From: Pinguiococcus pyrenoidosus
Lineage: Eukaryota > Sar > Pinguiophyceae > Pinguiochrysidales > Pinguiochrysidaceae
Length of the DNA stretch: 36,359 bases
NCBI GenBank assembly: GCA_019677205.1
Contig: JAAMXY010001079.1
Coordinates: 1-36,359, forward strand
Direction: 5' to 3'
The translations under genes and the position numbers were made by a program. Under the pieces are notes generated by a model that was given only the letters and a program-made list of their open reading frames with translations, did not search any database and was not told the origin of the DNA. The number at the start of each line of letters is the position of its first letter. The stretch's first letter is position 1. Positions 1,868 to 31,801 of the stretch are shown here, in pieces.

Positions 1868-4721
1868 TTAAGCGTAGTTTTCTTCACAGAGCGACACGAC
1901 TCGATCCAAGACTCCGTCGAGGTGGACAAACCTTCCCTGCAAGCCGCGCACGATACCCTTCACTCTTTCGAGTCGATTCTCTGCGTCGTAGAGGCCTCGC
2001 TCCACATTCAACACGTCCCCTTCAGCCGCGTCTGCGCTGGCACCCCGCGCGAAAGCTTGGAACTGCCCGAGAAGCTTTCGCTTTCTCTCGAGGAGGCTGC
2101 TCTTCCGTTGCTTCTCATACAGGGACGAGTTCATCTTCGCCTGCAGGTCGTTTGCCTGTTCCTCCAGAGCCCCGTACTCTAGGGTCTTCTCCTCCAGCGT
2201 CTTTGAGATCTGATCATTCTTCTGCGCCCGCTGGGCCACCGCAGACTCGTATCTGTACGCGTTCTCGGACGTCTTCTGAATCTCTCGGGAGAGCTGAGCA
2301 AGCTTCCGTTGCAGCCCGGCCTTGGTGTATTCCGAAGCCTTGGCACCCCCGACCCCTCCACCAATCTTCCGCCGAATTGGCTTGGCGGAGGCAATGTTCT
2401 CCGCTTCCTTGACGCCCCGGTATCGCGTGCAAATGGTCTCTCGCTTGTACACAGCTCGCTCCAGTTCGATCAGGAGCTTCTCCTGCTCCCGCTGCAAGCC
2501 TTCTTGTCGAATGCGCATTCGATGGATTTCCCGCTCCATCGACTTCACCTCGGCTTGGCCAGACTCGGGGTCCAGCGCTGCTTTCGTCTCCTTCTCCAGC
2601 TCGATCTTCTTCTCCCAGAGGAGCAGCTGCCTCTCGGCTTCGACGATCTCCGTGCTGATCTGAGACTTCTCTTCTCGCGCCTTTCGCGTTCGTTGTTCGA
2701 GCTCAGAGCTCTCTTGCTCCAACTCCTTCAGGCTCTCCACGAACTCGCGCTCGAGCACAAAGTTGTCGTTCTTTATTGCCTGCTGCATGGTTGAGTTCTT
2801 GCCGATGAGGTCGTTGAGCCTGGTCATGTCTTGGTGCAGCACGCGCATTCGTGCTTCCAGACGCCTCGCCTCTTCATCCTGCCCACCGATGCTGGCAAGC
2901 ATTCGAAGACGCTTCTGGGAGAGGATGGTGATCTTGGCGTCAAGCTCTTTGTTCGCATCTCGGAGCTCTTCCGTCGCGGCCGTGCACGCCACAAGCTCCG
3001 TCTGGTCTCGAAGCCACTCGCGCTGAAGCTCTGCAGACTGCTGGCCTTGCTCTTCGAGCTCCCGGCGAAGATTCGAGATGGTGGCCTCGAGGGGGCCGTT
3101 CGATTCTTCGTCGACAACGTTCTCCATCATTTTCTCGTACTTTCGGTTCAGTCGATCCACCCGATACATCTTCTTTTCGATGTCGTCGTTTCTCTGACGG
3201 ACCTCGAGCTGGTACTTTTCGATGAGACGATCTTTGGCCTTCAGCTCGTCGAGCACTTTCTGCAGGGTCCCGCGGAGCTGGACCGTGTGGGCTTCTGTGT
3301 TGAGCTTGTCGATGTTGATCCGAGACATCTCGTTGTCGAGGTTGGCGATCTCAAAGCCAGTGGCGTGCTTCTGGCTGAGGAGCTGGGCGCTCTGCTTGTT
3401 CAGGTTTTTCACCGCTTTCGATGCCGTCAGCTGCAGATTTTTCTCTTCCAGGATGGACGTTTCCATCTTGTTCCTCTCTCGGGCGACGGTCTGAATAGAG
3501 TTGTTCAGATTCTCGATCTGCACCATGAGCGCCCGACGCGCGACTTCCAGTTCGCCTTCCTGAGCCTCCGTCGTGCCGAGGGACTTTTGCAGCAGGGCAA
3601 ACCTCTCCTCCAGAACGGCTCGATCCGCTCTTATCTTCGCGATGGCCTCTTCCACGAACTTGCTCTCCGCCTCCAGGGTCTCCTTGCGCGAGAAGACGGC
3701 CTCCTGCGCGTTCTGGATCGCCCTGATCTCCCTCTTGACGGCTTCGAGTTCGATGTCCTTGTCGGAAGACGATATCTCCGCTTCGCGCAACACCTTCTTG
3801 GCTGCCATCAGCGCATCGTCACGGCGGCTCAAGCCGATGAGTGCAGACCTCCACTGCTGCATGAGGGTCTTCTTCTCAAAATCGATGGCCTCCATCTCGG
3901 TCGCCGTTTCCCTGATGATCTCGTCGGCCGCTTTCGATTCTTCCCGCGCCTTTGCAACCTGCTCGTCGAGCAATTTCAGATCTTCCTGCAGGGTCTTCAG
4001 CTGCTGCGTCAGCGAGTCGATGAAGAGGTCTTGGCCCTTCTTGCCCTTCTCCAGATTCGCGACCGCTTCCTCCGCCTTGTACGTTGCTCGGCGGGTGACG
4101 GCGATCTCCGACTCCACCTCTGCGTTGTACTTCTCGACCTGGCGAATCGTATCCACGAGTCCCCGCAGCTCCGCCTCATTCTTCTGCAGCTGCTTCTCGA
4201 GGTCCCTGAGGATGTCACGCTTCTCCGCGTTCGCGTCCTGCTGCTTCACCGTGGCAAGCTCTTCCTCTTCCCGATCGCGCACGAGGTCTTGGCACTGCTT
4301 GTACTCGTTCTCCAGCTGGACGTGCAGCTTGGCCAGCTGCTGCTGCAATCCGTAGAGCGTCACACCCGTCTCCTCACGGGTCTTCTGGGTCATTCGAAGC
4401 AGCTCTGCCTTCTCGCGTGCCTCGGCCGCCAGCCTTTCGTACTCCGTGCTGAGCTGCTTGTAGAGGGCGTCCTGGACGCGCTGCATCCTCGGATGTCTGC
4501 CCATCTCCGTGATGACCTGCTCCACGTCCTCCTGTGGCAGCGCATCCAGCTCCATCTCGCCGTCCTCCACGTAGGCATCCTGCATCTGGGCCAGCGAGTC
4601 AGCGGCGAGAAGTTCTCCTCCAAGCAGGCACTGCTGCCGCCTCGCCACGCACCTTCTCTTCCTCCTCCTGCTGCGCCGTGGAGGCCTTTTGGACCTCCAC
4701 CTCTGCTTCGGGAGTCTCCAT
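1868..4721 (-). CDS. CCDC40: CCDC40/FAP172-like ciliary ruler protein
   Basis: This is an almost continuous coiled coil, matching CCDC40 (Chlamydomonas FAP172). With CCDC39 it forms the 96-nm axonemal ruler that positions inner dynein arms and the nexin-dynein regulatory complex. The diagnostic block is at about residues 680-746: LLLWEKKIELEKETKAALDP, then GQAEVKSMEREIHRMRIR and LERAVYKRETICTRYRG. This resembles the CCDC40 C-terminal third rather than CCDC39. The preferred model has exon 1 at 4653-4721 (23 codons, METPEAEVEV...) and exon 2 at 1868-4585, with a 67-nt intron (AAG|GTGCGT ... CCCAG|ATG), total 928 residues. Alternatively, the main frame is open upstream to an ATG at 4648, giving 926 residues without splicing. 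The spliced form is favoured because both sites are good, the phase is 0, and exon 1 is acidic and low-complexity as is usual for this family. It is divergent from the hydroxylase gene, with 382 bp shared upstream DNA. Confidence 0.9.
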
Positions 4722-5103
4722 GCCTGCCGCGACCCGCAAGACCGGCGAACGCCGGAGACGAGAGAGTCGGAACATTTCTATCCGAGTCAAACCTCCAGGA
4801 GCCGTTTCAGCCGTTTCGCTGGTCGGAGGATGATTATAAGACCAAAATCCTTTCAAAGTCTTTGGTCGGGACTTTAACGGCTTCAACAGCTTAAAAGAAA
4901 TACTAAAAGGCCCATCTTGAGGAAATCAAATCAGCTATGAATCAGAACCCATAACGATCCTGCTCGAAGAACTTTCGGCTGCCTGGACACGCCTGAACCA
5001 CGTTGGCGCCTCACTTGGGACACTTCACTGCGCCTTGGTGACTCGATTGCCGCATTTTTTCCGCCTCAGGTCGGATTCGTAGGTGTGGAGATCGTGCGGG
5101 ACC
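4722..5103. promoter_or_regulatory. divergent intergenic promoter region (CCDC40 / hydroxylase)
   Basis: This 382-bp segment lies between two divergent start codons, so it should contain both promoters. It has an AT-richer centre (about 4850-4950) with runs such as TTAAAAG and TACTAAAAGG. I see no clear TATA box or known element. Its role is inferred from gene orientation. Confidence 0.45.
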
Positions 5104-6216
5104 ATGGAAGCGGCGCTTCCGCTGCTCAATGCGGCGGCAATCGGAGGCTTCGCGGTCAGTGCCAATGTCCTTCTGAAGCCGCAGCCCTCTGTCAGCGCGC
5201 CTGAGCTGTACTGCTACGGAGCCCTCGCCGTCGTGAGCCTCACCTACCTGCTGGGCTTCTTCGGGGTGCAAATCGCGTGGGACGCGCTCGGGGGGTCCAA
5301 AAAGCCATCGGCCACGCCGACGGATTTTGGCAGCTTGCTGAAGAGCGCGATTGTGTGGCCAGCCATTGTGTGGTTTCCGCTGTACATGACGTATCTGGGT
5401 GGTCATGAGCGCCACTTCCTGCCGGGGTGGTGGGAAGATGGAGCTGGAGCGGATTTCTTCGGCTGGGAAGCGCTCAGGCATGCCCCCAGTCCGCTGGGCC
5501 TGACGCTGGGGCTTCTTGCAGTGCTGGTTGGGATGGTTCCCGTGGTCCTGTACCACGCCATGAGGCGAGGAGGCTTCCTGGGCTCGCTGCGCCCCATCCA
5601 GAAGGAGGGCGCGCCGCAGTACAACTTCTGGGAGGGCTTGGTGACGCACCTGAGCCAGCCGAGCGGATTCGCCCTGCTTGGAGGGTATCTCATTGGCACG
5701 TGGATGTTCAATCTCATGCCGCCGAGCTACTACACTTACGATCAGGGTATCAATTGGTGGCATGTTGCCGCGCAGCTGCTCGTGCAGGACTTCATTCAGT
5801 TTTTGGGCCACTATGCGGAGCACCGCGTGTCCAAGGCGTTCTACCGGATTTCGCACAAGGCGCACCACAACTTCACCAACCCGCGGATCTTCGATGCGTT
5901 TTCCGCGGCGTCGGTGGACACCGTTTGCATGATTCTGATCCCGCTGTTCCTCACGGCCTGGATCGTGCCGGCGAACGTGTGGTCCTACATGACGTTCGGA
6001 TCGCTGTTCGCCAACTGGCTGACGATGATTCACTCCGAGTACGCGCACCCATGGGACCTGATGTTCCGCGCGATCGGGCTCGGAACGGCGGCCGATCACC
6101 ATGTGCACCACAAGACCTTCAAGTACAACTTCAGTCACCTCTTCCTCTACTGGGATCGCGCAGCGGGGACGTACAGGGATCCGAAGGACGTGCGTTCCTT
6201 CAACGAAGGGGTGTAG
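5104..6216 (+). CDS. fatty acid hydroxylase superfamily (sterol desaturase-like) membrane protein
   Basis: This single-exon gene encodes 370 residues of an integral-membrane di-iron oxygenase-type protein (FA_hydroxylase, PF04116 family). The three histidine clusters that bind iron are visible: HYAEH at 236-240, HKAHH at 251-255 and HHVHH at 332-336. Hydrophobic segments lie near residues 35-55, 80-95, 130-155, 195-215 and 280-300. The start is the ATG at 5104 in a perfect Kozak context (ACCATGG). A GTG at 5083 is in frame but unlikely in a eukaryote. Members act in ER membranes on sterols, sphingolipids, alkanes or ether lipids; the substrate cannot be told from this sequence. The N-terminal 200 residues, with extra membrane helices and no His box, are longer than in C-5 sterol desaturases. 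The 3' end is 104 bp from the convergent DNAAF4 stop. Confidence 0.85.
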   Translation: MEAALPLLNAAAIGGFAVSANVLLKPQPSVSAPELYCYGALAVVSLTYLLGFFGVQIAWDALGGSKKPSATPTDFGSLLKSAIVWPAIVWFPLYMTYLGGHERHFLPGWWEDGAGADFFGWEALRHAPSPLGLTLGLLAVLVGMVPVVLYHAMRRGGFLGSLRPIQKEGAPQYNFWEGLVTHLSQPSGFALLGGYLIGTWMFNLMPPSYYTYDQGINWWHVAAQLLVQDFIQFLGHYAEHRVSKAFYRISHKAHHNFTNPRIFDAFSAASVDTVCMILIPLFLTAWIVPANVWSYMTFGSLFANWLTMIHSEYAHPWDLMFRAIGLGTAADHHVHHKTFKYNFSHLFLYWDRAAGTYRDPKDVRSFNEGV

Positions 6217-8318: not shown

Positions 8319-8830
8319 CCTTCCTGCTTACGAAGTCCTGCGCAACCGATGTGCTCGCGCCCGTACGCAATGAGACAGACGTTCTCGAAAGACCCTCGCT
8401 CGCTCACGGCAGATGTATGGGTATGGCAGATGGTCCAGATGGCTTTGGTAGGGCGGCAAAGACGCTCGTACGACGCCCAGTGCGGCGCTGTGCGGCGCAA
8501 CACATGCGGGCGTGAGGCAGAACAGATGTGTTTTGAATCTTCATGCGTTTCATAACACGAAACGGTCACACTGAAGAACCGTTGCGGAAGAACTTCTGGG
8601 GCGACAGAAAGAGTGCAGAGAGCACTGATGCTACGGTAAGTAAGAATATATATTTACCCAGACATCCATCATTTTCCCGCTAACGGCATCAACGGCATCC
8701 CCGTTCAAATTTTTATTATGATGCTTACAGTAATGATCGGAATCGGATCCATTGACAATCCTTGTCGAACACCAGATCTGTGACGAATCGTGATCATTGC
8801 GGAGAAGCGGAATGCTGCGAGGTCACACAG
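8319..8830. promoter_or_regulatory. divergent intergenic region (DNAAF4 / WD40)
   Basis: This region lies between two divergently transcribed genes and should hold both promoters. Visible elements are an AT-rich TATATATTT stretch near 8645-8655 and TTTTCCCGC at 8672-8680, which fits the E2F/DP consensus TTTSSCGC. A small direct repeat (AACGGCATC) occurs near 8682-8698. No RNA gene was recognised. Confidence 0.4.
8672..8680. promoter_or_regulatory. E2F-like site TTTTCCCGC
   Basis: This fits the E2F/DP consensus and lies between the DNAAF4 and WD40 genes, about 160 bp upstream of the first in-frame ATG of the WD40 gene. It is a motif match only; such 8-mers also arise by chance in GC-rich DNA. 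Confidence 0.25.
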
Positions 8831-10600
8831 ATGCGTCCCCCCCAAAAAGCGTTTCGAACTCTTACAAAAACTCCAGTTCCTTCACCTGAAACTCTGATAT
8901 TTCCGAATCGCGAGATGGCCCCACAGAAACGTCCAGAGTGCCTGGGCAAGTCGTCAGATTCGTATTCGAAGGCATCCGCCAATGGGGTGACGGATGTCCG
9001 GCGTAGGAAGCGCCTTGGGCCAATCGACGCCGAAGCAATAAGGCTTCCTTTTTCGCGTGAGCGAAAGCGCTTTCGTGCGAGGTGTCGCCCCAAGCTCGAA
9101 GGGCTGCATCCTGGTGTCCTTTGGACGCCGAGAATGGCCGAAGTCACCGTTCCCGAGCGCGTGGAACTCATTCGAGCGGGTCGCTGCACGCGTCATCCTT
9201 CCGAGCATCTCGTCGAGGAAGTGTGGGGGACGAAGCGCAGAGGCTTCTTCCGGCGCAAGCAGAAGGTCCTGCTCGGCACCCAGCGACGCGCGTGCCCGCA
9301 GTGCGCCAGCATCGCGCCCCGCTCCAGCACCCTCATGTCGGACACCCTCGACGCGCAGCTGGACGGCAAGAGCCCGGAGGAGCAGGCGGCCTTCTGGAGG
9401 CAGGAAGCGCAGCGGCTTCGGGAGGAGCGCCAACAGCTGGAGAAGGACAGGGAAGCGTACCGCGCCTTGGCGGACCAGCGCCGAGAGGCCTTGGAGGCCG
9501 TGAAGCCCGGCGCGGACGGAGAAATCCGAGCGCCCGTGAACGCCAATGGAGGCCTCACGGAAAATGAAGAAGACAAGCCACAGGCGGCCGCCTCGTCGCC
9601 GGAGACGTCGCAGGCCAAGGAGAGGCTTCTGCGGGCGGCCGCCTTCATCACCTGCTCGCTGACCTTGGACGACCACGACGACGACGTTGCCGACGTGCAG
9701 GTCAGCCCGGACGGGGGCTTCGTGCTCACGGCCAGCGCCGACGGCGAATCGAAGGTCTGGCTCGTGCACAAGACCGTCGCGTCGGCGGTGTGCATGCAAA
9801 CGCTGGATCACCCCAAGGCGATCCTCTCCGTGGCCATCTCCGCCGACAGCAGCTATGTGGTCACGGCCAGTGCGGACTCCACCGCCAAGGTCTGGCTGGT
9901 GGACATCAACGCGCCCAAGTGGTCCTCCTTCGAGCTCAAGCATGCCAGCATCGTGCAGTCCGTGGCCATCGCAGCCAACGGCGCGTTCGTCGTGACGGGA
10001 TGCCACAACGGCAACGGCAGATTCTGGATCACCGACCAGGACTCGGCGACGTGGGAGCACCGCCCCCTAGAGGGCCACACCGCCGAGGTCACAAGCGTGG
10101 CGATCAGCGCCGACAGCACCTTCATCGTCACGGGCAGCAAGGATCGGAACGCGAGAGTCTGGACGGTGGACCTCATGTCCCCCGAGCCCCCCGCCTGCGT
10201 GACAGAGCTTGTCGCTCACCGAGACGAAATCACCGACGTGGCGATCGCGCCGGACAACAGCTTCGTCCTGACTGGCAGCGGGGACCGCACCGGCAAGGTT
10301 TGGAACGTGAACCTCGATGAAGAGTTCTGGACGCCCGCGGCGACCCTCGCGGGGCACCGGGGTAGTGTGAATGCCGTCGCGATCTCGTCGGACTCCACGT
10401 TCGCCGTGACCGGCAGCTCGGACAAGTCCGTCAAGCTCTGGCTCGTGGACCGGAGCGAGTCCTCCTGGTTCTGCCTGAGCACCATCCAGCATGCCCGGCC
10501 CGTGCTGTCCGTCGCTGTGTCTCCCGACGGATCTTACATCGTGTCCGGCAGCGCATCAGGCGACACCAAACTTTTCACCATGGATGACCATGAAGAGTAG
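8831..10600 (+). CDS. seven-bladed WD40 protein with N-terminal Cys/His motif and coiled coil
   Basis: The C-terminal ~330 residues form one complete beta-propeller. Seven repeats follow each other, each with a core like VTSVAISADSTFIVTGS and a closing strand like KVWLVD. A charged helix precedes it (EEQAAFWRQEAQRLREER and beyond). Upstream is a short basic segment with CTRHP and, about 37 residues later, CPQC, a spacing suggesting zinc binding. As I recall it, similar C-x2-HP...CPxC segments occur in many diatom and other stramenopile proteins. That motif indicates that translation begins upstream of the ATG at 9335, so I place the start at the first in-frame ATG, 8831 (589 residues). ATGs at 8915 and 9134 are alternatives; 9134 would give 488 residues and still keep the motif. 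No intron is evident. The propeller is presumably a protein-binding scaffold, and the partner is unknown. Confidence 0.83.
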   Translation: MRPPQKAFRTLTKTPVPSPETLIFPNREMAPQKRPECLGKSSDSYSKASANGVTDVRRRKRLGPIDAEAIRLPFSRERKRFRARCRPKLEGLHPGVLWTPRMAEVTVPERVELIRAGRCTRHPSEHLVEEVWGTKRRGFFRRKQKVLLGTQRRACPQCASIAPRSSTLMSDTLDAQLDGKSPEEQAAFWRQEAQRLREERQQLEKDREAYRALADQRREALEAVKPGADGEIRAPVNANGGLTENEEDKPQAAASSPETSQAKERLLRAAAFITCSLTLDDHDDDVADVQVSPDGGFVLTASADGESKVWLVHKTVASAVCMQTLDHPKAILSVAISADSSYVVTASADSTAKVWLVDINAPKWSSFELKHASIVQSVAIAANGAFVVTGCHNGNGRFWITDQDSATWEHRPLEGHTAEVTSVAISADSTFIVTGSKDRNARVWTVDLMSPEPPACVTELVAHRDEITDVAIAPDNSFVLTGSGDRTGKVWNVNLDEEFWTPAATLAGHRGSVNAVAISSDSTFAVTGSSDKSVKLWLVDRSESSWFCLSTIQHARPVLSVAVSPDGSYIVSGSASGDTKLFTMDDHEE

Positions 10601-12144: not shown

Positions 12145-15100
12145 TCATTGGCGCTTACGCCGTCGAAGCGGGTTGAGCTTATCGTACCGGCGGGCCTCGG
12201 ATATCAAGGACCTCGCCGTCTGTACGAATCGTGCCACACTACTTTTACTAACCTTTGGCACCCCCTGGGCCTTCACAGCATCTTTGTCGCCTTGCGCAGC
12301 GGCTACTCGCCGCTGAAGCAGCTCGATCATCCAGACCAGCGCCTCGCGCTGCTCCCTGGTCAAGCCAGAGGATGCTGCCTCAGCCCGTGCCCGCTGCTCC
12401 TTCGCAATGAAAGCTGGGTCCTTGCCCGCCGTGATCGCCGCCTCGTACGGGTCGTCAGAGCTCCGCTTCTCTGCTTCGGAGGTGCTCGACCTACCCCGCT
12501 CCCCATCCTCCATGGACACCTGCCGTTCTTGGGCCTCCACAACCTCACTTGGGTCAGATTGTACATCTTGTGCACCGGTCACCTCCTTCTCGACTGATTT
12601 CTCTTTCTGCTCTTCACCAGTCGGAGCCGCCTTCTTCTCCTCGTCGGACATAAGCTCTATGCTTTGAGGTATCTTCTGCTTGTCCTGCTTCTGCCCTGCA
12701 GCCTCTCCTGTCTTTACATCTGGTGCTTGACCCTCTCTATCTTCTTGCCCTACTTCTTGCTTGGCATCAATCGTCGGTGCAACTTTGCTATCAAGCGCAG
12801 GCTTGGCTTCGGAAACGGATTCTGAATCGCTGGCCTCCAGCGTGCCAGGGTCTTGCGAACTAGGGACAGGAGAAGCGCCTTCTCCACTGGGTGCGTTCTC
12901 AGTGGGCGACGGATCACGGCCTCCTGAGCTAAGCGACACCTCAACCGCGACGGAGGGCTGTTTCTCAGAGGAGGAATCCTTGACTTCCACGTCAACGGTT
13001 AGCTCAGCCACATCGGCACTTGGCTGGGAGGACCCCACCAGCACATCCTCCGCAGCCTTAAGGTCCGAGGCTTCAACTTCGCCGGTCGCGCTTGACGAGC
13101 TGGCTTTGGGCACTACTCCGGGGAGTTTTTCGTCGGCCGACTGGACCTCTGGCGCGGTCAGGGGAGCTGCTGGCGTGCTAGCGCCTACTAATGTGTCCAC
13201 TGCCTTGTCGGGAATGTCAGCCTTGGCGTCTTCCTTCTCAAGGCTCTCGATTGGGGCGCCGCTCTCACTGGGCACCTTGGTTGGCGCCGCCTCTTTCCCA
13301 TCCGACAACGACCCCGAGGCAGGGTCAATCTCGCTAGGCGAGGATGCTTTTAAGGCTTTCTTCTGGCCTTCGACTTGCTTGGCTTCAGGCGAAGATGCCA
13401 CGTCCTTTGTCGAAGCTTTCTCGATTGGTGCCTCCGCAGCAACGGCTGTCGCAAGCTCAGCCTTATCCAGAATTACGTCCGTCGTCTTTGCAGCGTTCCC
13501 CCCCATCGGGGCTTCAGCCAGTTGATTTTCTTCGGAGTTGATCGTCTGCGGAGCGTCTCCAGGCGGAGCTCTCTTGCCATCGTCGGCTGCCAATACCGCA
13601 ACCGCAGCGCTCAGGTCACCAGCGTCCACAAGTTGCTTGGCCCCTTCAATGTCTCGTTTCTCAGAATCCTCGACCTCTGCGGCTTTCGCCTTCTCCGCTT
13701 CGATGCTGAGGGGCTGCCTGAGCTCAATCGACTCGGTGTCTTTGACGTCCGATATCTTCTCCTTCTCCGTTTCCAGAGTAAGCTTCTCACCCACTTGGGC
13801 AGTCTCTTCCTCGGCAGGCTCGACCTCCACTGTCTCGAGCTTCGCTGCCGAGCCACTGTCCAGAGACACCTCCGAAGCTTGCTCAGCCTCGGCGACCTCG
13901 GCCTTGTCTTCGGGCATCTTAAGAGTCTCCGCCTCCATGCTAAGAGCCGGCTTGAGGTCCACTGACTCGGTGTCTTTGGCGTCCGACATCTTCTCCTTCT
14001 CCGTTTCCAGAGAAAGCTTCTCACCGACTTGGGCAGCCTTTTCCTCGGCAGGCTCGACCTCCAATGTCTCGAGCTTCGCTGCCGAGCCACTGTCCAGAGA
14101 CACCTCCGAAGCTTGCTCAGCCTCGGCGACCTCGGCCTTATCTTCGGGCATCTTAAGACTCTCCGCCTCCATGCTAAGCGCCGGCTTGAGGTCCACTGAC
14201 TCGGTGTCTCTGGCGTCCGACATCTTCTCCTTCTCCGTTTCCAGGGTAAGCTTCTCACCGACTTGGGCAGTCTTTTCCTCGGCAGGCTCGACCTCCACTG
14301 TCTCGAGCTTCGCTGCCGAGCCACTATCCAGAGACACCTCCGAAACTTGCTCAGCCTCGGCGACCTCGGCCTTATCTTCGGGCATCTTAAGACTCTCCGC
14401 CTCAATGCTAAGAGCCGGCTTGAGGTCCACTGACTCGGTGTCTCTGGCGTCCGACATCTTCTCCTTCTCCGTTTCCAGAGAAAGCTTCTCACCCACTTGG
14501 GCAGCCTTTTCCTCGGCAGGCTCGACCTCCACTGTCTCGAGCTTCGCTGCCGAGCCACTATCCAGAGACACCTCCGAAGCTTGCTCAGCCTCGGCGACCT
14601 CGGCCTTATCTTCGGGCATCTTAAGAGTCTCCGCCTCCATGCTAAGAGCCGGCTTGAGGTCCACTGACTCGGTGTCTTCGGCGTCCGACATCTTCTCCTT
14701 CTCCGTTTCCAGAGTAAGCTTCTCACCCAGTAGGATCTCCTTTCCTTCGCTCGCTATGGAAGGAGACTCGTCGTCTTTTTGCGCCGCTTCAGAATCAATA
14801 GGAAGCGACGCAACAGGAGTTTCCTTGACCAGCTCGACATCCTTTGAGCTGTCTAGCCTGTCCGCCTTCTCCGTGAGGAGAGTCACCGACGGCTTGACGT
14901 CGACCACCCCTTCTGCTGGAGACGCTTCCTTTTCCAAAGCTTTGGCCGTTTCTCCGCTCGCTTGAGCATCGCTGCTCTCTGTCTCTGTCGACGCAGATCC
15001 CGAAGCAATGGACTCTGTTCCCGACGCATTTTCGAGCGCCGTCACAGGAGTCTTCCCGGATTCGGAAACATCAACGTGGACCTCTGACACCTCCGATTTT

Positions 15101-18100
15101 TCCGTGTCAAGGCTGACCGTGGCTTTGACGTCGACCTTACCACCCTTCAAGCCCTCCGTCTGCTCCGGCTCGCCTGACTCCGAGTCGGCGCCAAGAGGCG
15201 GCAAGATCTCCCCGTCGAGAGATAGCACCGGAGCTTCCACCGGCTCTTCCTCCTTCGAAGCAACAACCGACTCAGAGGCTTCGCCGTCAATGGGCGAAGA
15301 CGTCGACTTGATCGGTTCTGCAGAGGATTCCCCACTGGGCGGTACTGCCGCAAGCTCCTCCAGCTGGGCGGCGTCAGCGTTCTCCTTCAGCGCCTGCGGC
15401 TTGTCAGCATCGAGGCTGATGGACGGCTTGAGTTCAGTCTTTCTTTGATCCAAGGACTCTTCCTTCTCAGAGACAGCCGTTGCCTTGGTGCTGATGCGAG
15501 GGCCGTCGCCATCAACGGCTCCAGCCTCGGGTTGGACCAACCCGGCCGAGGACTCGCTATCGAGAGACAGCGCGGGAATCTCATCTGGCTGGGTGACGTC
15601 AAGCTTTTCGGTCGACTCCTCGATCTTCGCAGACCCGAGGCCCGCAGGCACATGGACTCCAGCTGGCTCATTGTCTGGCAGATCCGCAGCCTGCTCTTCT
15701 TTCGATTCTGAGCTCGATTTACTCAGCGACAACGGCTCACCCGTGGGGAGCTCGACTGCATCCTGCTTCGATTCCTCGTCACTTTTGCCTCTCTGACCAT
15801 CCTTGCGCGCCACGGGCACTTCGCGCTGGAGGTTGTCCATCTTCTGCTTCTCTGCTTCCAGGGTCAAGAGAGGCAAACGGTCTGCATCTAGCTTCGACTC
15901 CGTGTCTAGCTTCGACTCCGTGTCTAGCGTCGACTCCGTGTCTAGCTTCGACTCCGTGTCTAGCTTCGACTGTGCATCTCGCTTCGACTCTGCATCTAGC
16001 TTGGTATCTGCATCGTCTTGAGCCAGCATGGCAGCCTCGGCAGCACCCGCATCTGCAGTCGCCAGATCCTTCAGCTTTTCCTTCTCACCTTCGATAGTCA
16101 AGGAAGGCAGGCCAACGTCATCCAGCGCCGACTCTTCACTACTCTGCGTCATTTCGGGATGTTTGATCGGGGCTTCGACTTCCGTCTCGGAGGCCTCGCT
16201 CTTCGCCTTTTCCGCTTCCAAGTTCAAAGGAGGAAAAGCGGCTGCGGATGCATCCTGAACGTCGGGGAGACGTTCCTTCTCGGTGTCCAGCGTCAGCATT
16301 TTGCCAACTTGCTCATCCTCTTCCTTATCAGCAGAAGCTTCCGAAGCTTGCGGCGACTTCCCAGAATCCTTCAACGCTTGGGCTGGATCAGCGCTGTCCT
16401 TAGCTACTTCGACAGGTTTGTCTGCTTCAGGCGCTTTCGGTGTGTCTATTGCGATCGCCCCTGCTTCCGAATCCTTGGACATAGTCTCGACTGACACGGC
16501 AGCGGTCTCTCCATCTTTGGGATCGACCAGCTCCTTCTCGCCGCCCAGCTTCAACGTCACCTCCTCCACCTCCTCAGAAGAAGCCACGTCCGACTCTGGC
16601 GTCGAATCCGATAAATTCACTGGATCGGAGCCATTCAGCAGCGGTTCCGAAGTTCCAGTCGATGGCAGAGGCTTGGAGTCGCGATGTTCGTCCCCCTTCA
16701 CCTCAGTTGCTGATTCTGCTGCCGACGCATCCACTGGATCAGTCGACTGCTGCGAACTGCTGAGTGCCTCCGAAGCGGGCGCATCCACCGCACCAGCGGT
16801 GAGCTGCACGTCCACGGCATCTGACTTAAGCTCTGGAATGCCGTCAGAACGCAGCGAATCTTCACTCGCCAGGCTCTCAGCTTCAGACGAGCCCTCTTTC
16901 GGAATGGAGCTCGACGCAGAGGGGGAAAGCTCAGGGTCTCCAAAGCCTGCTTCCGCTTCCGTCTCAAGCTTGGATTCCGTTTGTTCCTCCTTCGGTTTGG
17001 ATGCGCTAGCCGGTGGTTCTGAAGTCAACGAGTTGAGGTAGCTGAATCCTGCGACGAATTCGGAGGGCGGCGCGATGGGTTCGGCCTCTGCTTTCTCTGG
17101 ACTTGTACTTGCTTCAGAAGCCATGTACGGGGCCCCGACCGGCTCAGAAGATGCCGGCGAAGGCTCGGCTCCAATGCTTGTCGTTTGCAGAAGGTCTCCC
17201 AGCATCGCCTCTTCCGGCACTTCTTGGATGGAGCCCTGATCCGCGCCACTCCCTACTGACGCAGCCGCGTCGCGGATCTCCTGAGACTCAGGTTCGATGT
17301 TCAGCTTGTCTGACGTTTCGACCAGTTCCTCGACCGAAGAGCTTGGCGCATCGCTCACTCCTTGCTTGATGCGTAGGTCCGAAGCTTCTTCCGACGACGC
17401 AGTTTCTGCTGTTGCCACTGGGGCGGGATCCAACGAGAGCGCAGACACACCAGAAACTTCTTCGGCGATCTTCACCTCGCCAGAAGCCGTTTCAGAAGGA
17501 GTCGACGGAGTTGACGCTTTCCCTGGTTCGGCGACAGCTGTCAAGTCTTTCTCCAAGGAGACAGAGCTGCTATTTTCGCCGGTGACCTCAGAGGAGGACT
17601 TGGATTCGGATTTAGTTTCCAGGGTCGCCTCCTGCTTCTGTGACTCGTCAACCTTGGTCTCGCTGGAAAGAGATCCCTGTACCTCGGCAATGTCGAGAGG
17701 CTTGTAGTCTCCGAAAACAAGTTGCGCGGCTCGCTCAGTGGCTGACTCGTCCTTCTCGATAGCCTTGGCACCCGCGTCCGCGACAACGGCAGGAGGCGCC
17801 TCCAGCTCCGACTTGGCAGCCTTCTGCTTCTCTCCGGACTCGATGCTCGAGGGCTCGCCACCGATCGTCGCAGGCGAAGCAACGGGGACGTCTACCTGCG
17901 CCTCGTCGTCGCGGGGCTCGAGAGAAGTCTTGATCTCGTTTTTCGGCAAGGCATCGCTCCCGGCTTCGAGCTCCAGCGCTGCTGGCGGATCCTTTGGGAG
18001 TGCAGCGGGCGACACATCAACGCTCAAGGAGACGTCAACACTTAGGTCGTCCGACTTGACAGTGAGCGATACGTCGAGCATGTCAGCCTGGGAGGCCTCC

Positions 18101-20075
18101 ACCGAGATCTGCTGATCCACCTCGGAAGCTTCGATTGCCACGGGCACGTCCAGAGTTTGCGATTCTGACGGCACACTTGGCGATGGGTCCGCTACTGCTA
18201 CCTGCGAGTCCTCGTCAGCCTGGTCTAGGCTCGGATCGAGACTTGGCAGACTGGCTTCGCCGAGAGACGGGTCCATGTCAGAAGTGACATCTTTTCCGGA
18301 TGCCACATCAGCTGCGTCATCGCCAACCGTGGCAGGCTCGGAAGAGATGACGGTTGCTTCAATTGGTGGTTGAAGGTCCGTCGACTGCTGCTGCTGCTGC
18401 TGCCGCTCCAATTGCAGCTGATCGTCCTCCTTGTCCACTACTTGATTCTGGATGTCGCTGGTGTCGAGCGCCCCTTCACCTTGGGAAGCTGCCAACGCCA
18501 GCGCTGGCGCTTCCACAACGTCTGTGGCCTCTTCAAAGTCGAGGGTCTCCAGTGCTTCCCGGGATCCTTGGGCAGCCTCCACCGCGGCAGTGACCGTCGC
18601 GGCTTTCTTCCACAAGCCTTGGCGTCGATCGACCTTGTAGCCTTGCAATTCCTCCCAGTCAGCGCTCTCCAGCATGTGCTGGAGCCGCTCGGTGCCAACC
18701 TCGCCAAGCGTGCGTTGGTTCTGCAGGTACACGGCCCCGGTTGGAATCACACGCTGCGCTGCGCGAACCTGCGGCGTTCGCAGGATATTGACCATGGGGT
18801 GGGGACTCCGGCGAGCATAGTTGCCAGCGGCAGCATCATCCCTCTCCTGGCCGTCCGAGTCGCTGGCCTGCATGCGATCAGCGCCGTCTCGAAACTCGTA
18901 GTTCGGGTGGAAGAAGACCAGCTGGATGCCAAGCTCTCCCTCGTCGATGCGAAGGGGTTCCAAGGCTCTCGTGAGGGTGGTCGAGAACGCGTCAAACGCG
19001 TCCGCGCTGCGAAGGCAGAAGTTGGGGCAAACGAGCATCGTCGTGCTCAAGCTGCGCTCGTCGCTCTCCTGCAGCCTCGCCACTTCCGCCCAGAACGTCT
19101 TGTACATGGTCTCTGCATCCGCGCAACGTTCAACTGGATAAGCGACGTCGCCAAGTGGGAGCCCCGCCTTCTCCGAGGAGGTCGCGAAGGGACAGACTCC
19201 AAGGCCAGCCACGAGGGACTGCACCCACTCCTTGTTGACCTTCACGAGGTCCTCATCGGAGAGGCTGCCGGGATGCAGCTTGCCCCAAGGCCCGTAGACG
19301 TCGGCCTCGGCCATCGAGGCCTCCGTCGCCGATCCTTTCACCTCCCAGTTCTCATCCCAGCCCTCGTCCTCGGATCCGCCTGCAATCCAAATCGTCAGCG
19401 ATGCGATGCGACACGACACGCTTGCGAAGCGCATCACTTGCAGCCACGTACCGATCTCCCAGAACATGCCGCTGCCCTTGTCCTCCGACGCCGAGGGCCG
19501 CTTCAGCTCGACCACGGCCTCCTTGAGCTCTCCGTCGTACTCCTGCGGGTGGTGGCCGATCGCGTAGACCTTGGAGCCGAAGCCCTCGCAGACGTCCTTG
19601 CAATCCTCCAAGTGCTCCAGGAAGGCCGCCATCTGGCCGGCGTCATCGAACGCGGTGACGCCCGGGAAGCGCACGAGTCGCGTGGAATCGTCTGCAGAGC
19701 ACAAGGCGAGACACGTGATGTGAGGATGGCCAGTGTGGCGCCCGAGCGCTGCGCTGGACACCACTGACCGAGGCCTCCGGCATCGCTGAATCCGAAGACT
19801 TTCTCGTCCGAGGCGCCATCTTCGCCCTCGTCCAGCATGTCCCCCACTGCCGCCCACACATCTCGCAGAGCGGCCGCAGTGGTGATGGCGTCGGAGACCG
19901 TCTCCTTGGCACTCGTGAACCTAGCGCCGGCCCAAGGGCAAGGTTCAGCGGGAGGCGACAGCGGGCGGCGCGTGAGCGGCTCGCGGACGCTCTTCGAGAC
20001 GCGCGGCGCCACTCGGAAGGCTTCCAAGGCTTCTGGCGCCGCGAGGAACAGCAGGAGCACGAAGCTCGAGGCCAT
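12145..20075 (-). CDS. plastid-directed DUF1415 protein with giant acidic repeat tail (copy A)
   Basis: Exons are 19769-20075, 19452-19691 and 12145-19379, with introns of 77 and 72 nt, both phase 1, giving 2,593 residues. Residues 1-19 are a signal peptide, and position 20 begins FRVAP followed by an Arg/Ser/Pro-rich stretch: the bipartite presequence of complex red plastids. A conserved segment (LVRFPGVTAFDD; EHLEDCKDVC; MFWEIG) precedes the DUF1415 domain at about 232-415 (WVQSLVAGLGVCPFA; IQLVFFHPNYEF; YARRSPHPMVNILRTPQVRAA). DUF1415 has no established activity. From about residue 470 the protein becomes a ~2,120-residue tail rich in Ser, Glu, Asp, Ala and Lys, almost without aromatics or Cys, so probably disordered. 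The tail contains a polyQ run, an 18-bp array, a 234-bp array and a basic end (RYDKLNPLRRRKRQ). The second intron has no stop and is a multiple of 3, so an unspliced reading stays open; splicing is inferred from copy B, which has an intron at the identical position and phase. Confidence 0.86.
13683..14718 (-). repeat. tandem array of 234-bp (78-aa) coding repeats
   Basis: Four full 234-bp units plus a partial fifth lie inside the tail of DUF1415 copy A. The same landmark recurs at 13737, 13971, 14205, 14439 and 14673, always exactly 234 bp apart. Units encode L(T/S)LETEKEKMSDA, then DLKPALSMEAE, then EVSLDSGSAAKLE. They differ by only a few bases, so the expansion is recent or is being homogenised. 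Each unit appears to consist of three sub-repeats of about 24-29 residues built on the same short motif. Confidence 0.92.
15881..16006 (-). repeat. 18-bp coding minisatellite (SKLDTE)n
   Basis: About seven 18-bp units encode variants of the hexapeptide S-K-L-D-T-E (for example SKLDAE, STLDTE) within the tail of DUF1415 copy A. The period is a multiple of three, so length changes keep the frame. It is a likely site of length polymorphism. Confidence 0.9.
18385..18402 (-). repeat. CAG run encoding polyglutamine
   Basis: A short CTG run on the + strand is read as six Gln residues (ERQQQQQQS) shortly after the DUF1415 domain of copy A, at the beginning of the disordered tail. Confidence 0.85.
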
Positions 20076-24943: not shown

Positions 24944-26073
24944 ATGAAGGCGCCTGCTCTGCTCCTCGCGCTGCTGAGCGCGTTGGGCTGCAGTGCTCAG
25001 AAGCGAGGCGTCGTCAAGGTCTGCTGCGCATCTCTCCTCATTCCCCAAGGGCGAAGCTCAACCATTCTCTCTCTCTCTCTCTCTTCCGCGACAGAGCTGC
25101 CCCGCGTGACGCTTGAATCGTCTGCCGGAGGTGAAGAAGTTCCTCAAGCAGAGCGGAGGTCAGTGAGCACAGCCCCCATCCTCTGCTTTACCTCTTGAAG
25201 CGTTCTTTCCGCTAACTTCGCACGTGGCATCAGGGGTGGACCTGTATCCGGATGTAACGATAGACTGGATCAGGTGCGTAAGCTTTCTCCTCTTTTTTTT
25301 TTTTTTGGGGGGGGGNNNNNNNNNNNNNNNNNNNNNTCAGACGCTTCAGTTAAGACCTCATGGATCTTGTTTTGTAGGGGACATAACCCGGACCTCTACG
25401 TGTATGAAGGACCGTCAAGCGAAGCAAAACGCGTCGTGGACCTTGGCGCCTACAAGTACGATCAGCTTCACAGACTGTTTGGGGAGGAGCTAGGATTTAG
25501 GAAAGTGCCAGCAGCGCCGTCGGCGCCGCTGGTCTCGAAGGCACAGGGACAGGGGCAGGGGCAGGGGCGGGGGCAAGAACAGGGAAGAGTTTCTGACGCG
25601 CAGCGGGATGACTCGAGCTCGAAAGGGCCCGATGAAAAGGCTGCCGGGGAAAGGAAAGAGCTCGCTGTTGGACAGCCCCGGGATGGAGCGGCAAGCGGCG
25701 GCGCAGCCCAGCCCGTGAAGAAGGAGTACGTCCGAGTGCATCAACTGAGAACGGGACCGTTGAGGCAAGCTACAGAGGTGGATGACGGAGGCCATCGGCA
25801 TGGAGAAATGCGACCACCAGACGTGTTGGACGGCGCGAAACAGTCGGCGGAAGCAGAGACCGGACTGCTGATCATCGTAGTCCCGTCGCTACTGATCGTT
25901 TGTGCGATCGGGTTCTTTCGACACCGGGTACGTGGCCGGATAGGCTTTTGCCTTACATACCCGAGGTAGCATCAGAGCGTAGGGAGTCCTGACCTGCCAA
26001 CTTTCCCTACCTACGACAGCTTCAGAACCTTTTTGTGCGAGCACGGAGCAAGAATGATCTGGAGTCGAAGTAG
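24944..26073 (+). CDS. SELENOM: SelM/Sep15-family selenoprotein with UGA-encoded Sec and C-terminal membrane anchor
   Basis: Exons are 24944-25018, 25095-25158, 25234-25273, 25378-25927 and 26020-26073, giving 260 residues. Residues 1-18 are a signal peptide (MKAPALLLALLSALGCSA). Exon 2 reads SCPAURLNRLPEVKKFL, where U is an in-frame TGA at 25107. This matches the CGGU-QLNRLKEV redox site of selenoprotein M, and the thioredoxin-like fold continues with DLYPDVTIDWI, RGHNPDLYVYEG and FGEELGFRK, all SelM/Sep15 signatures. All phases agree (0, 1, 2, 0). Beyond the usual SelM length lies a Gln/Gly-rich linker of about 120 residues, a membrane helix (about 222-240) and a short basic tail. The last intron (25928-26019) is inferred from GTACGT...GACAG; without it the protein ends at 25969. 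A likely ER-lumen thiol oxidoreductase, anchored as a type I membrane protein. Intron 3 contains an assembly gap. No SECIS was securely identified. Confidence 0.86.
25066..25085 (+). repeat. CT microsatellite in intron 1 of the selenoprotein gene
   Basis: A (CT)n run lies just before the splice acceptor of intron 1 and serves as its polypyrimidine tract. Confidence 0.85.
25107..25109 (+). other. in-frame UGA, predicted selenocysteine codon
   Basis: This TGA falls exactly where the second redox residue of the C-x-x-U motif is expected in the SelM/Sep15 fold (SCPAU), with homologous sequence continuing on both sides of it. The alternative acceptor that would avoid it abolishes all resemblance to the family. 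Confidence 0.87.
25316..25336. other. assembly gap (21 N)
   Basis: Twenty-one undetermined bases follow a T16-G9 homopolymer within intron 3 of the selenoprotein gene. The gap does not touch coding sequence in the model given. The true intron length is unknown. Confidence 0.99.
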
Positions 26074-26648
26074 TTGAAGAGGCCCTTCTTGAAACGAAGG
26101 TCTCGACTGGACTGCTCGATGGTTTTTCTTGTGAATGGGATATAGCAGCGGCGGGATCAGGCTCTTGTTTCAAGTCTTCGGATGCCGATGCAGAAAAACG
26201 CATGGCAGTTTTGTGCACGGAGCGAACTCTCGGCGCTTCCCAGCCCTTCCCCCTCTCTCGAACAGCCCTTGTAGATGAACGCGCATCAGTGAAGCGCAGG
26301 AGCACCAAGGACGGTGGAAAACGAGTCAGAAAATGGATTACTCCCGACGCATCACACAGCGGCTTCCAAGAGCTCCCTCACGTCAAGCCAGGGCCTTTCT
26401 TCTCCCGATTCCCCCTTCCCCGTGCCCTCCCCCAGGTCTGCCGAGCAGCAGAGGAGGCCCTCCAGCTCAGCTGGCACCGGGTCACGGGAGCGCAGCGGTC
26501 TGGGAGTATGCTCCGTCACTGTTTTCAAGGCACGGTCTGCGACGAACGTCGTCGTCGAAGCTCCGAAGGGTCTTCTTGACGACTGCAATCGCGGCAGGCA
26601 AATTCGCTAACTACTCGGTGAGGAAGGCACCGACGCCGCCATTCATGT
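26074..26648. other. convergent 3' region of the selenoprotein and B56 genes
   Basis: This 575-bp segment must hold the 3' UTR of the selenoprotein mRNA, where a SECIS element is expected, and that of the B56 gene on the other strand. Two stems are visible: CCTTC...GAAGG at about 26083-26101, and a longer hairpin at about 26182-26207 with TGCC/GGCA and ATGC/GCAT arms around an A-rich loop. Neither shows the ATGA...GA quartet at the proper place. No gene is supported. Confidence 0.5.
26182..26207. other. hairpin with A-rich loop in the selenoprotein 3' UTR
   Basis: Arms TGCC and ATGC pair with GCAT and GGCA around a loop AGAAAAAC, with one bulged G. It lies about 110 nt after the selenoprotein stop. 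It resembles the apical part of a SECIS only in having an A-rich loop; the non-Watson-Crick quartet is not evident. Confidence 0.3.
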
Positions 26649-28330
26649 CTACGTCGAGGCAGCCACCTCCTCCACTTTCTGCCAAAGATCATCAGACTCC
26701 TTCCGCTTGGCTTCCTTCTGCTCCACTTGACGGAAGTATTCCGTGGAGCATCTGTCATACAAATTCAGATCAAACTCCATGTACATCTTCAGCACGTTCT
26801 GCGCCAGCCCCTCGACGGTGGCGTTCCAGTGATTCGCGCTGTTGCGGTAAAGAGAGCCGTAGATGATCGGCAGTATCCCCGGAGCGAAATGCCGGCTCAG
26901 GCACCCACTCTGAACCAGCTGCTCGTTATTCCAAAGCAAAAGAGCCCTCTCCGCAACCTGCGAAAAGCCAAGGAAAGACACGGCACAAGAAGACAAGAGA
27001 CGCGCGGGGCGCATTAGACGAGGGGCGTCCTTTCAAATGCTGGACTTGATCCTGCGGTACCTGGAAGTGAGCAGAGCCGACGCACTGCGACAGCAAGGTG
27101 TAGAGGGAATGCTGGAGACTCTCCTGGCCATTGCTCTGCGTCAACTGCTCAGAGCCAACCAGCTCAAGGATCTCCTCTAGTTCGGAGAGAATCAGGACCT
27201 GCTTCGAACTCGATGACCACGGCCAGAGGCGGATGATACCCTTCAAGATCGGCACGGCCGTGTCCGGATCTTTCTCGACGTACTGCACAATGCAGTAGCT
27301 CAGCTGCTGATGATACAGGTTGATGCACTTCGGCTTGTGCAAGGGAATCAGCGCCCGCTTGAGGAACACGAGGTGCTCTTGCTTCAGAGGTATGGCGAAC
27401 CCGTTGATGATGGAGCCCAAGATCTCCAGGAGCTCGCCGATGCCGTTGTGCCTCTCCGTCTCGTAGATGAAGCGGTAGAACATGTTGGAGATTGTCTTGC
27501 GAATGAACGACCGGTGGCTCATGAACTTCCCGTAGATGCGATGCAGGATGGTCTTCAGATAGTCCCGTTCCCGAGGATCCTCCGAGTCAAACAGCTCGAT
27601 CAGATTTAAACAGAAGGTCTGGTCGACGTATCGCTTCGCCACCTTCGCGTTGACCTCTTGCGACACGATGAATCGCAGGAAGAACTCGTACACGACCTAG
27701 ACGCATGCAGCTCGTCAGCAACCGCCGACACCGCGCTCCGCCGGGCAGCAGTCGTACCTGCAGGTGCGGCCACGCCGGCTCCAGCACGGGATCATCTTCG
27801 TCGGGGTCGAACTCATCCATCTGCGGCGGCAGCGAGCGGAAGATGTTCGCCGACACGCACGAGACGATGTCGGGCATGAGGCTTTCCGTAAACACCTTCT
27901 GCCCAACTGGGGTGTTCACAAAGTCTACCAACTCCAGTAGCGTCTGTCTCTTGAGGTCCTTCTCGGTCTTGTCCTCATTTGCACCCCCGGCGAAGCTGAA
28001 GATCACGGAACAAAGCTCTAGCTTCTGTTGGAACAGCCACTCCCGTCGTTGTACGCTAACATCTCGGAGAGCCGGCAGGTCCTGCAACGTGCAACAAGCC
28101 TTAGTTTGAGGCCAAGCTCCCGGCTTCGTCGGCCGGGCATGTAGTGCCCTCACCTTCAACGCTTCTACTTTCTGGTGCGCGAGGAACGACGATCTCCGCC
28201 GCTCTCGCTTTGGAAGAGCGACGTCTGCGCTCGGAGTCGGACTTGTCCCCGCGGGATCAGCTGCTGGCGCCGTGCCGTTGCCCTCCACCTTCTTGTCCGG
28301 CCTCCGCTTGATGTTGAAAAGGTTCTTCAT
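26649..28330 (-). CDS. PPP2R5: PP2A B56-family regulatory subunit
   Basis: This is a HEAT-like regulatory B' subunit of protein phosphatase 2A, which recruits LxxIxE-type substrates and acts at kinetochores and in signalling. Exons are 28154-28330, 27758-28081, 27061-27696 and 26649-26957. The introns (72, 61 and 103 nt) are all phase 0, giving 481 residues. Residues 1-59 are a variable, basic, Ser-rich N-terminus ([14 protein letters not shown]). Then come [76 protein letters not shown] and [19 protein letters not shown], the almost invariant B56 core. The last exon gives [15 protein letters not shown] and [18 protein letters not shown]. The start is the first ATG in frame. A CCCCCAG just upstream at about 28340 looks like a splice acceptor, so a 5'-UTR intron is possible. 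Confidence 0.95.
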
Positions 28331-29052
28331 CTTGCCAGCCTGGGGGAAAAGGATCCCGAGGGACGCGCGCGGGTCAATCGTCTCGTCGGCTATTGCGTCC
28401 CGTAGGCTCTCAGAAGCCACACCTGCGGTCCCCAGCGCAGAAAGCCTTACTCCTCCCCTTTCGAGTCAAGGTGCCCACCCTAGAAGCATCAGGTTAGTCA
28501 GGCTGCATAGCGGGCAAGTGGCGTCTCGTGTTCTGTTCCCGCCTCCGGAGAAGGCATTCAACCATCCTTGCTCCCGCCCGTGCGGCCAGATCCTCACGTC
28601 CGTTCGCAGACCATGCTCCCTCACGACTCTTCCAGTAGCATCATAACTCTTCAGTCAGAGTCCGCATGGGCGCCACAGGGCTTCTTTCGGGGGGCAACGT
28701 CGCTGCTCCGTCCCCGTCCCTCCGGATGCTCTCCAACGGCTGCGAGCCGCACGATTCTGTTCCATTTCGGTCGAGGGGCTTCCGCGCGCGCGGAGAGCAG
28801 TCGCCATTCGATCCAGAAGCGCGGAATGCGCACGCGCGTCCGGAAACCCGAGGCGGTGCGTACCAATATTCTGACCCAAAACAAGGCCGGTCGTTTCCCT
28901 CCGCAAGCCAGGATCGATCGGTCCTTTCGAAAAGCACCGGTCAATCTTGGCGCACACCTGGCGGCGCCGGCGCCCCTTCCTCCGGTTCTCGAAGCAGCGG
29001 GACCGCGGCGGTGTGTGAAGCCGCAGTGGCGATCGCGCGGGACCGGACAGGC

Positions 29053-30478: not shown

Positions 30479-31801
30479 ATGGCACCCACGATGCGTCGCA
30501 GATCGAAGAGAAGAGCTCCGCTACGCACGATCGTGCCCTCCAACCACGAGCCTGACAACGCGGAAGCACCGGAGAAGATCAGCGGCTCCAAGAGAAGCAA
30601 GGTAAGCAACTGGGAAGGAAGCGTGGTGCGCGAGGGGCATGTGTGCATCCTTCCAGTTTGAATGCAGAAGGCGCGAAACGCCGTTTCGGAGCCTTTGGGA
30701 AGGAACCAGGCCTGACCAACCTCTCCCCTGTTGCAGAGACAGCGCACCGTGAAGGCAGAGCGAGAGAAGACCGTAGAGAGCCGGGCGCAGACGAAACGCG
30801 CCCGACGTGAGGTCACGCCCGATGAAAGGAACGTCGAGAACGGCCCGGTTTCCACGCCGAAGCGCGCCGCGAAGAAGAGCTCCTCGCGCGCTGCGATTGA
30901 CTGGGCGGACGAGTACAAGGACGACATTCTGCAGCACTGGAAGGACACCGAGGGCTCTCGAGCTGTGAAGCCGTACATGTCTGCACAGCGGGACATCGAC
31001 GCCCGGATGCGCGCCATCCTCGTGAACTGGCTCGTTGAAGTGCACATGCGCTTCGGCCTCCAGCCGCGCACCATCTTCATGGCCGTGCACATCATCGACT
31101 TGTACTGCATTAACACGGCAGTGGCGCGCTGCCGGCTGCAGCTCGTGGGCATCACGGCCCTCTTCATGGCATGCAAGTACGAGGAGAAGACTTCCCCAGA
31201 AATTCAGGACTTCGTCTACATCACCGACAACGCGTATTCTGCGGAGGAGGTCCTGGAGATGGAAGTATGCATGTTTCACAGGTGCGCGCCAAGAACACGG
31301 ATTGGGAGCAGCATAGGCCACCAGCCTCACTCCCTTCTTTTGTGTTTCGAACCTAGGCTTCATCATCGCCTCTGCTTCCCGACTGCGTTCGAGTTCTACG
31401 TCGCCTTCGCCGAGGCGGCTGGGTTGGACCCGAAGGGCACGAACTTGGCGTACTATCTGGTGGAGCGGACGCTGCAAGAGCACGACATGCTCGTCTATAG
31501 ACCCTCGAAGATTGCGGCGGCAGGGGTTTTCGTCGCTCTTCTGGCGGAGAACGGCAACCCTGCACGGGCGTGGACCTCGCACATGGAGCGGATCACGGGG
31601 TACTCGTATCGTGGCATCAAGGATTGCGTTGGGCAGATGCTGACGGCAGCAAACTCGGTGTCTCGCTCCAAGAGCCGCCAGCTTGTGGCAGTGAAGACCA
31701 AGTTCGAGTCGGAGGAGTTCCTGGAGGTCTCCAAGCTGCCGCTGCCGGTGTGGGAGAAGGCGAGTCCCTCGCCGACAGAGGTTCCCAACGCGTCGACATA
31801 G
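30479..31801 (+). CDS. CCNB: mitotic B-type cyclin
   Basis: This is the regulatory partner of a cyclin-dependent kinase at mitotic entry. Exons are 30479-30601, 30737-31281 and 31357-31801, with introns of 135 and 75 nt in phases 0 and 2, giving 370 residues. A destruction box for the anaphase-promoting complex is at residues 12-22, [11 protein letters not shown] (R-x2-L-x2-I then N). Many Lys and Arg follow. The cyclin box begins near 140 with [16 protein letters not shown], the hallmark of A/B cyclins, then [18 protein letters not shown] and [26 protein letters not shown]. The C-terminal cyclin fold includes [23 protein letters not shown]. The start is in a GCCATGGC context. The second intron contains no stop and is a multiple of 3, so an unspliced reading stays open but breaks the cyclin box. 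Confidence 0.94.

Follow-up and report, generated by a model that had tools for sequence, protein, structure and literature searches.

The locus at positions 24944-26073 of the forward strand raises the question of whether a selenoprotein of the SelM/Sep15 type can be tethered to a membrane, as a preliminary description of this DNA had proposed. Both SelM and SelF are small proteins of the ER, and what they act on is still unclear. The stretch analysed as a whole (the window, 36,359 nucleotides) is a single contig from the genome of a photosynthetic protist, Pinguiococcus pyrenoidosus, which comprises 23.7 Mb in 768 contigs. The observation itself, consisting of a gene, a redox domain, an in-frame UGA codon and an anchor, was confirmed. 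Beyond that, we consider it probable (about 0.84) that the gene encodes a selenocysteine (Sec)-containing SELENOM acting as a type I membrane-tethered oxidoreductase, with Sec insertion, topology, compartment and substrates being predictions from sequence.

The gene is composed of five exons specifying 260 residues, and all four of its introns are bounded by GT..AG. Joining the exons gives a frame of 783 bases in which the sole internal stop is the UGA at 25107-25109, corresponding to residue 30. Exon 1 (24944-25018) contains the start codon, an apparent signal peptide of 18 residues recognised by eye (MKAPALLLALLSALGCSA) and the start of the mature protein, and was matched in a protein search of the organism's own genome. 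Exon 2 (25095-25158), which lies within the Pfam and PDB matches, encodes SCPAU RLNRLPEVKKFLKQSG with the CxxU redox motif and is followed by exon 3 (25234-25273; GVDLYPDVTIDWI), while exon 4 (25378-25927) encodes the end of the redox domain, a linker and a transmembrane helix, and exon 5 (26020-26073) a basic tail (LQNLFVRARSKNDLESK) and the stop codon. Intron 3 includes a run of 21 Ns at 25316-25336 after a poly-T/poly-G stretch, representing an assembly gap or a masked stretch outside the coding sequence.

Among 5.8 billion proteins searched, the sole match to the whole sequence was P0001, a JGI protein of 229 amino acids from a contig of 1104 bases, which is identical to residues 32-260 except for a Gly to Glu replacement at position 129. 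Because the window DNA yields P0001 only after removal of introns 2, 3 and 4, the P0001 contig most plausibly represents a transcript, and these three introns, including both junctions of exon 3, are backed by it. The candidate first intron separates residues 25 and 26, upstream of P0001, and was placed by the reading frame and the signal peptide. P0001 starts with a TTG after UGA-CGC, two codons past the UGA, which is what would be expected of a gene finder with an in-frame UGA standing in the transcript. This transcript-like sequence keeps the frame and starts right after the UGA, which speaks against transcripts that splice it out or shift around it, and the consistent splice junctions proposed for the gene hold for introns 2 to 4 at this level. 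The own-genome protein search recovered the five exons in order, with the next matches at E values of 0.2 and 0.4, and revealed no paralogue or second copy. A search of the whole genome with the Sep15/SelM profile PF08806 gave zero matches, presumably owing to the division of the domain among several exons.

Several other genes were seen in the window. A gene for the PP2A regulatory subunit B56, in three open frames (26649-28420, reverse strand), is convergent with the SelM gene, and an open frame of 2570 codons at 12145-19857 (reverse strand) contains a DUF1415 domain at residues 208-393 (E 3e-30), with no further Pfam family in it at E ≤ 0.001. Judged by a BRE1-like frame (1868-4648, reverse strand) and frames for a fatty acid hydroxylase (5083-6216), a WD40 protein (8762-10600) and a cyclin (30731-31801), all three on the forward strand, this is a nuclear eukaryotic neighbourhood.

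In the predicted protein, PF08806 matches residues 23-97 with 47.9 bits (E 1.4e-12), above the curated cut-off of 26 bits, and a thioredoxin-like fold would follow from membership in the SelM family. The best PDB sequence match is SelM (2a2p, E 1.6e-7; Sep15 reached E 0.061), and in this alignment CPAU falls on the SelM active site with the UGA of C-P-A-UGA at the Sec column. The domain is followed by a linker of 119 residues (residues 103-221; 25505-25861), which agrees with the length of about 120 residues given in the preliminary description; the Gln/Gly richness ascribed to it there is confined to about residues 116-129, the remainder being more charged. A Kyte-Doolittle scan placed the hydropathy maximum (mean hydropathy 2.76) at residues 222-240 (25862-25918), a 19-residue stretch, GLLIIVVPSLLIVCAIGFF, and the short basic tail beyond it ends in DLESK without a KDEL-like end. 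These results support the preliminary description as right on the gene, its family, the position of the UGA and the membrane anchor.

Single-sequence searches for relatives found P0001 only, and a short query found nothing. Proteins with the same plan surfaced only with a profile built from the mature protein together with a stretch each of SelM and SelF, which matched 585 proteins at E ≤ 1, 120 of them listed. Besides P0001, the highest identities among these 120 of 585 belonged to P0033 (178 amino acids, 64% over 31% of the query), P0042 (187 amino acids, 64% over 31%) and P0037 (160 amino acids, 54% over 37%). With PF08806 they scored 26.4, 26.3 and 29.7 bits, respectively, against the cut-off of 26, and P0001 scored 34.9 bits. 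Each of the three has a linker, then a hydrophobic helix, then a short basic tail, the latter being TRSKRHEDTE in two of them and TMAKRKEDMQ in the other, and their linkers differ in sequence and length from the one described here. Their first residue is in every case a Met that aligns with Val 38 (VKKFLK), eight residues past the UGA position, and these gene-call starts suggest that they may contain Sec as well. Beyond the UGA position their reading frame agrees with that of the gene, and their membrane tails are of like type; an unrelated reading frame at this exon was seen in none of the three. Their DNA was sought in viral contigs and in prokaryote genomes, where 161 and 50 pattern matches, respectively, gave 0 confirmed cases.

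The tail sets these proteins apart within the family as sampled. In a hydropathy scan of the 120 listed of 585 matches (from residue 46 onward, threshold 1.5), only P0001, P0033, P0037 and P0042 were flagged, leaving the other 116 without a flagged helix. Thirty of the 120 were of SelM type by motif and ended in RADL (17), HADL (9), HDDL, KEEL, HSDL or HPDL, and of the remaining 86 at least 68 ended in TN-x-I/V. KDEL-like ends of SelM proteins of this sort would serve as ER-retrieval signals. A tree built from 30 of these 120 sequences, unrooted and with very long inner branches, grouped the four tailed proteins apart from the SelM and SelF types with a support of 95.6/94, on a long branch of their own and not inside animal SelM.

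Profile comparison gave a probability of 94 and an E value of 1e-7 for SelM (8 sequences), and a probability of 50 and an E value of 1.6e-4 for SelF (10 sequences); by this measure SelM is the nearer of the two to the four tailed proteins. When a profile of these four, whose sequences all begin past the active site, was run against the PDB, it retrieved no SelM chain at E ≤ 10. With animal SELENOM (2a2p) the protein shares the redox domain, the signal peptide, the CxxU spacing, the ELGF...K end of the domain and the UGA at the aligned column. By contrast, the active site of animal SELENOM, CGGU as described in PMC10668967, was not found here, its place being taken by CPAU; two extra residues precede the conserved LY; and, where the animal protein is soluble and closes with a short tail whose last four residues are KDEL-like, a linker, a predicted membrane helix and a basic tail are found. 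SELENOF (Sep15, 2a4h) belongs to the same Pfam family and shares the RG-x-(D/N)-P stretch, but differs in its weaker profile match, in the CxC motif of the insect forms examined, in a longer Cys-containing N-terminal region and in the absence of a flagged helix past residue 45.

We propose that the signal peptide would send the protein into the ER, where the SelM thioredoxin-like domain with its Cys-Pro-Ala-Sec site would face the lumen, or the exterior as its topological equivalent. A type I topology is predicted from the signal peptide in combination with a single C-terminal helix that has basic residues after it. The helix and the short basic tail, presumably cytosolic, would serve as the anchor, with the long and flexible linker holding the redox domain off the membrane and giving it reach to substrates. 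In such an arrangement the anchor may take over the retention role played by the KDEL-like C-terminus in animal SelM and keep the CPAU centre near the membrane. The likely activity would be thiol/disulfide exchange, or peroxide reduction, on substrates of the secretory pathway; PMC10668967 treats SelM as a presumed oxidoreductase and reports glutathione peroxidase activity for it in vitro.

The alternative that competes best with an ER location is that the tethered SelM resides elsewhere, either in the plasma membrane or in one that surrounds the plastid. The genome does encode light-harvesting proteins (29 exon-level matches, with 1 of 14 control genomes also matching), which mark the organism as an alga; the tail has no KDEL-like end to hold the protein in the ER, and the N-termini of some proteins of this genome resemble the motif of complex-plastid signals. 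That motif may point to a secondary red plastid in this organism. However, inspection by eye of the sequence past the signal peptide showed no transit-like continuation containing Phe, and SelM has an ER signal peptide, with Sep15 too described as an ER protein in PMC10668967 and PMC5917014. We regard a location outside the ER as possible but rather unlikely.

Reading of the UGA as Sec would call for decoding machinery, of which the genome was found to contain several components. One tRNA-Sec with anticodon UCA scored 72.3 bits against a cut-off of 47 (5 of the 14 control genomes also pass), with four weaker matches at 39-44 bits under the cut-off. SepSecS gave a full-length match (E 3e-119; 3 of 14 controls also match) and the eEFSec domain was matched at E 1e-17 with no match in any control. 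Selenophosphate synthetase is an 812-residue protein encoded at L007 811-3249 (reverse strand) on contig C403; it has CGGCGAK without Sec, and its N-terminal part resembles NADH dehydrogenase by eye, a kind of fusion known from protists (described in PMC4561486). Two genes of the glutathione peroxidase (GPx) family also bear a UGA: one on contig C550, with the UGA at NVASYU and as the one TGA within a match of 123.8 bits, and a putative one on contig C382, with the UGA at NVASFU in a match of 33.9 bits and a second TGA in an apparent intron. A third GSHPx-family match, on contig C85, is a Cys form (NVASFC). Two further families were set aside as selenoproteins, namely a PF10262 match on contig C343, which is a Cys form (CTGC) with stops that seem intronic, and seven PF01625 matches with no TGA inside, among which a single TAG belongs to a match that is weak and partial.

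No convincing SECIS element was recovered from the 3' UTR of the SelM gene. Rfam gave no match there at E values up to 10 (up to 5 in a search of the locus), but this silence is weak evidence because Rfam also misses the 3' UTRs of both UGA-bearing GPx genes; its SECIS_1 model matched neither the whole genome nor any of the 14 controls and is thus uninformative. A scan for the canonical SECIS left the two GPx 3' UTRs empty as well and is therefore without proven power, custom pattern scans did not separate signal from background, and local RNA folds after the SelM gene included no element that could be called a canonical SECIS. A weak candidate at 26275-26302 (forward strand) consists of ATGAA, arms of 4 bp, GGAG and an outer helix of CCTTG/CAAGG. 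Its pattern was chosen post hoc after viewing the GPx genes, does not fit one of them (L013), and occurs 5 times (12 in a looser form) in 271 kb of partly self-overlapping background. Another weak candidate, at 26075-26106 (forward strand) beside the stop codon and with an apical AAA, was rejected as being at chance level (47 of 293 background chunks contained a match at the same thresholds), as were those at 26055 and 26132, which fall within the background range.

The two GPx 3' UTRs were found to have a compact hairpin in common, ATGAA-6bp-TGAN...NGAN-6bp-GGAR, at L013 2076-2113 (C550:8799-8836) and L015 2163-2198 (C382:52546-52581). Its arms differ between the two genes yet are fully complementary in both, and it offers two possible G.A tandems without an apical AA. 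Genome-wide, the pattern matched 17 times (8 for the reversed pattern), and the 2 matches with fully complementary arms were those of the GPx genes, the next best pairing being 4/6. This hairpin may be an unusual SECIS. It was absent in the same form after the SelM gene.

The lack of a recognised SECIS in the SelM 3' UTR is what speaks for a second alternative, that of a genuine tail behind a UGA which is decoded poorly or not at all, in which case residue 29 would be the last of the main product. Against it, the frame stays intact for 230 codons past the UGA and P0001 differs from it at 1 of 229 residues; P0033, P0037 and P0042 keep the frame, the linker and the tail; and the genome has both the Sec machinery and two other UGA-bearing genes. 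We consider this explanation improbable. A mis-joining of two separate genes, one for the SelM domain and one for the membrane part, could be imagined from the long low-complexity linker and the small redox domain but is highly improbable, as the end of the domain, the linker and the helix lie within one open exon (25378-25927), P0001 runs on into exon 5, and the order of parts is identical in the three relatives.

Extended and membrane-bound selenoproteins are known from algae in other forms. PMC7539508, which surveys 137 algae, describes SELENOM fusions with a pVHL domain in Aureococcus anophagefferens and with an ShKT domain in Emiliania huxleyi. These fusions resemble the present protein in that a unicellular alga has a SELENOM domain with further sequence attached, but by their description in that survey the attached parts are named domains; its main text does not contain the word transmembrane. 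MSP, found in Ostreococcus and Dictyostelium, is likewise a predicted membrane selenoprotein with an alga among its hosts, and is distinguished here by being tabulated as a family of its own beside SelM and Sep15 (PMC2375036). SelM itself is recorded in Ostreococcus, Thalassiosira and Chlamydomonas (PMC2375036, PMC9404770), and PMC6627142 contains neither SelM nor SELENOM as a word. A membrane-anchored SelM was not seen in the titles and opening parts of abstracts covered, and an entry with this plan may exist elsewhere.

For the membrane-tethered SELENOM that we favour, a broader proposal can be put forward tentatively: the tailed proteins may constitute a separate SELENOM subfamily found in several lineages, presumably of algae. 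In this subfamily the place of the KDEL-like signal would be taken by a transmembrane anchor, and the UGA would be decoded via a compact SECIS, akin to the GPx element, that current models do not recognise. The UGA hides such genes, with P0001 listed only from two codons past it and the other relatives from a few residues later. A membrane form with its redox domain held by a linker, and with relatives of the same plan, narrows where that domain must act, and a naturally tethered SelM would be a tool for trapping its partners.
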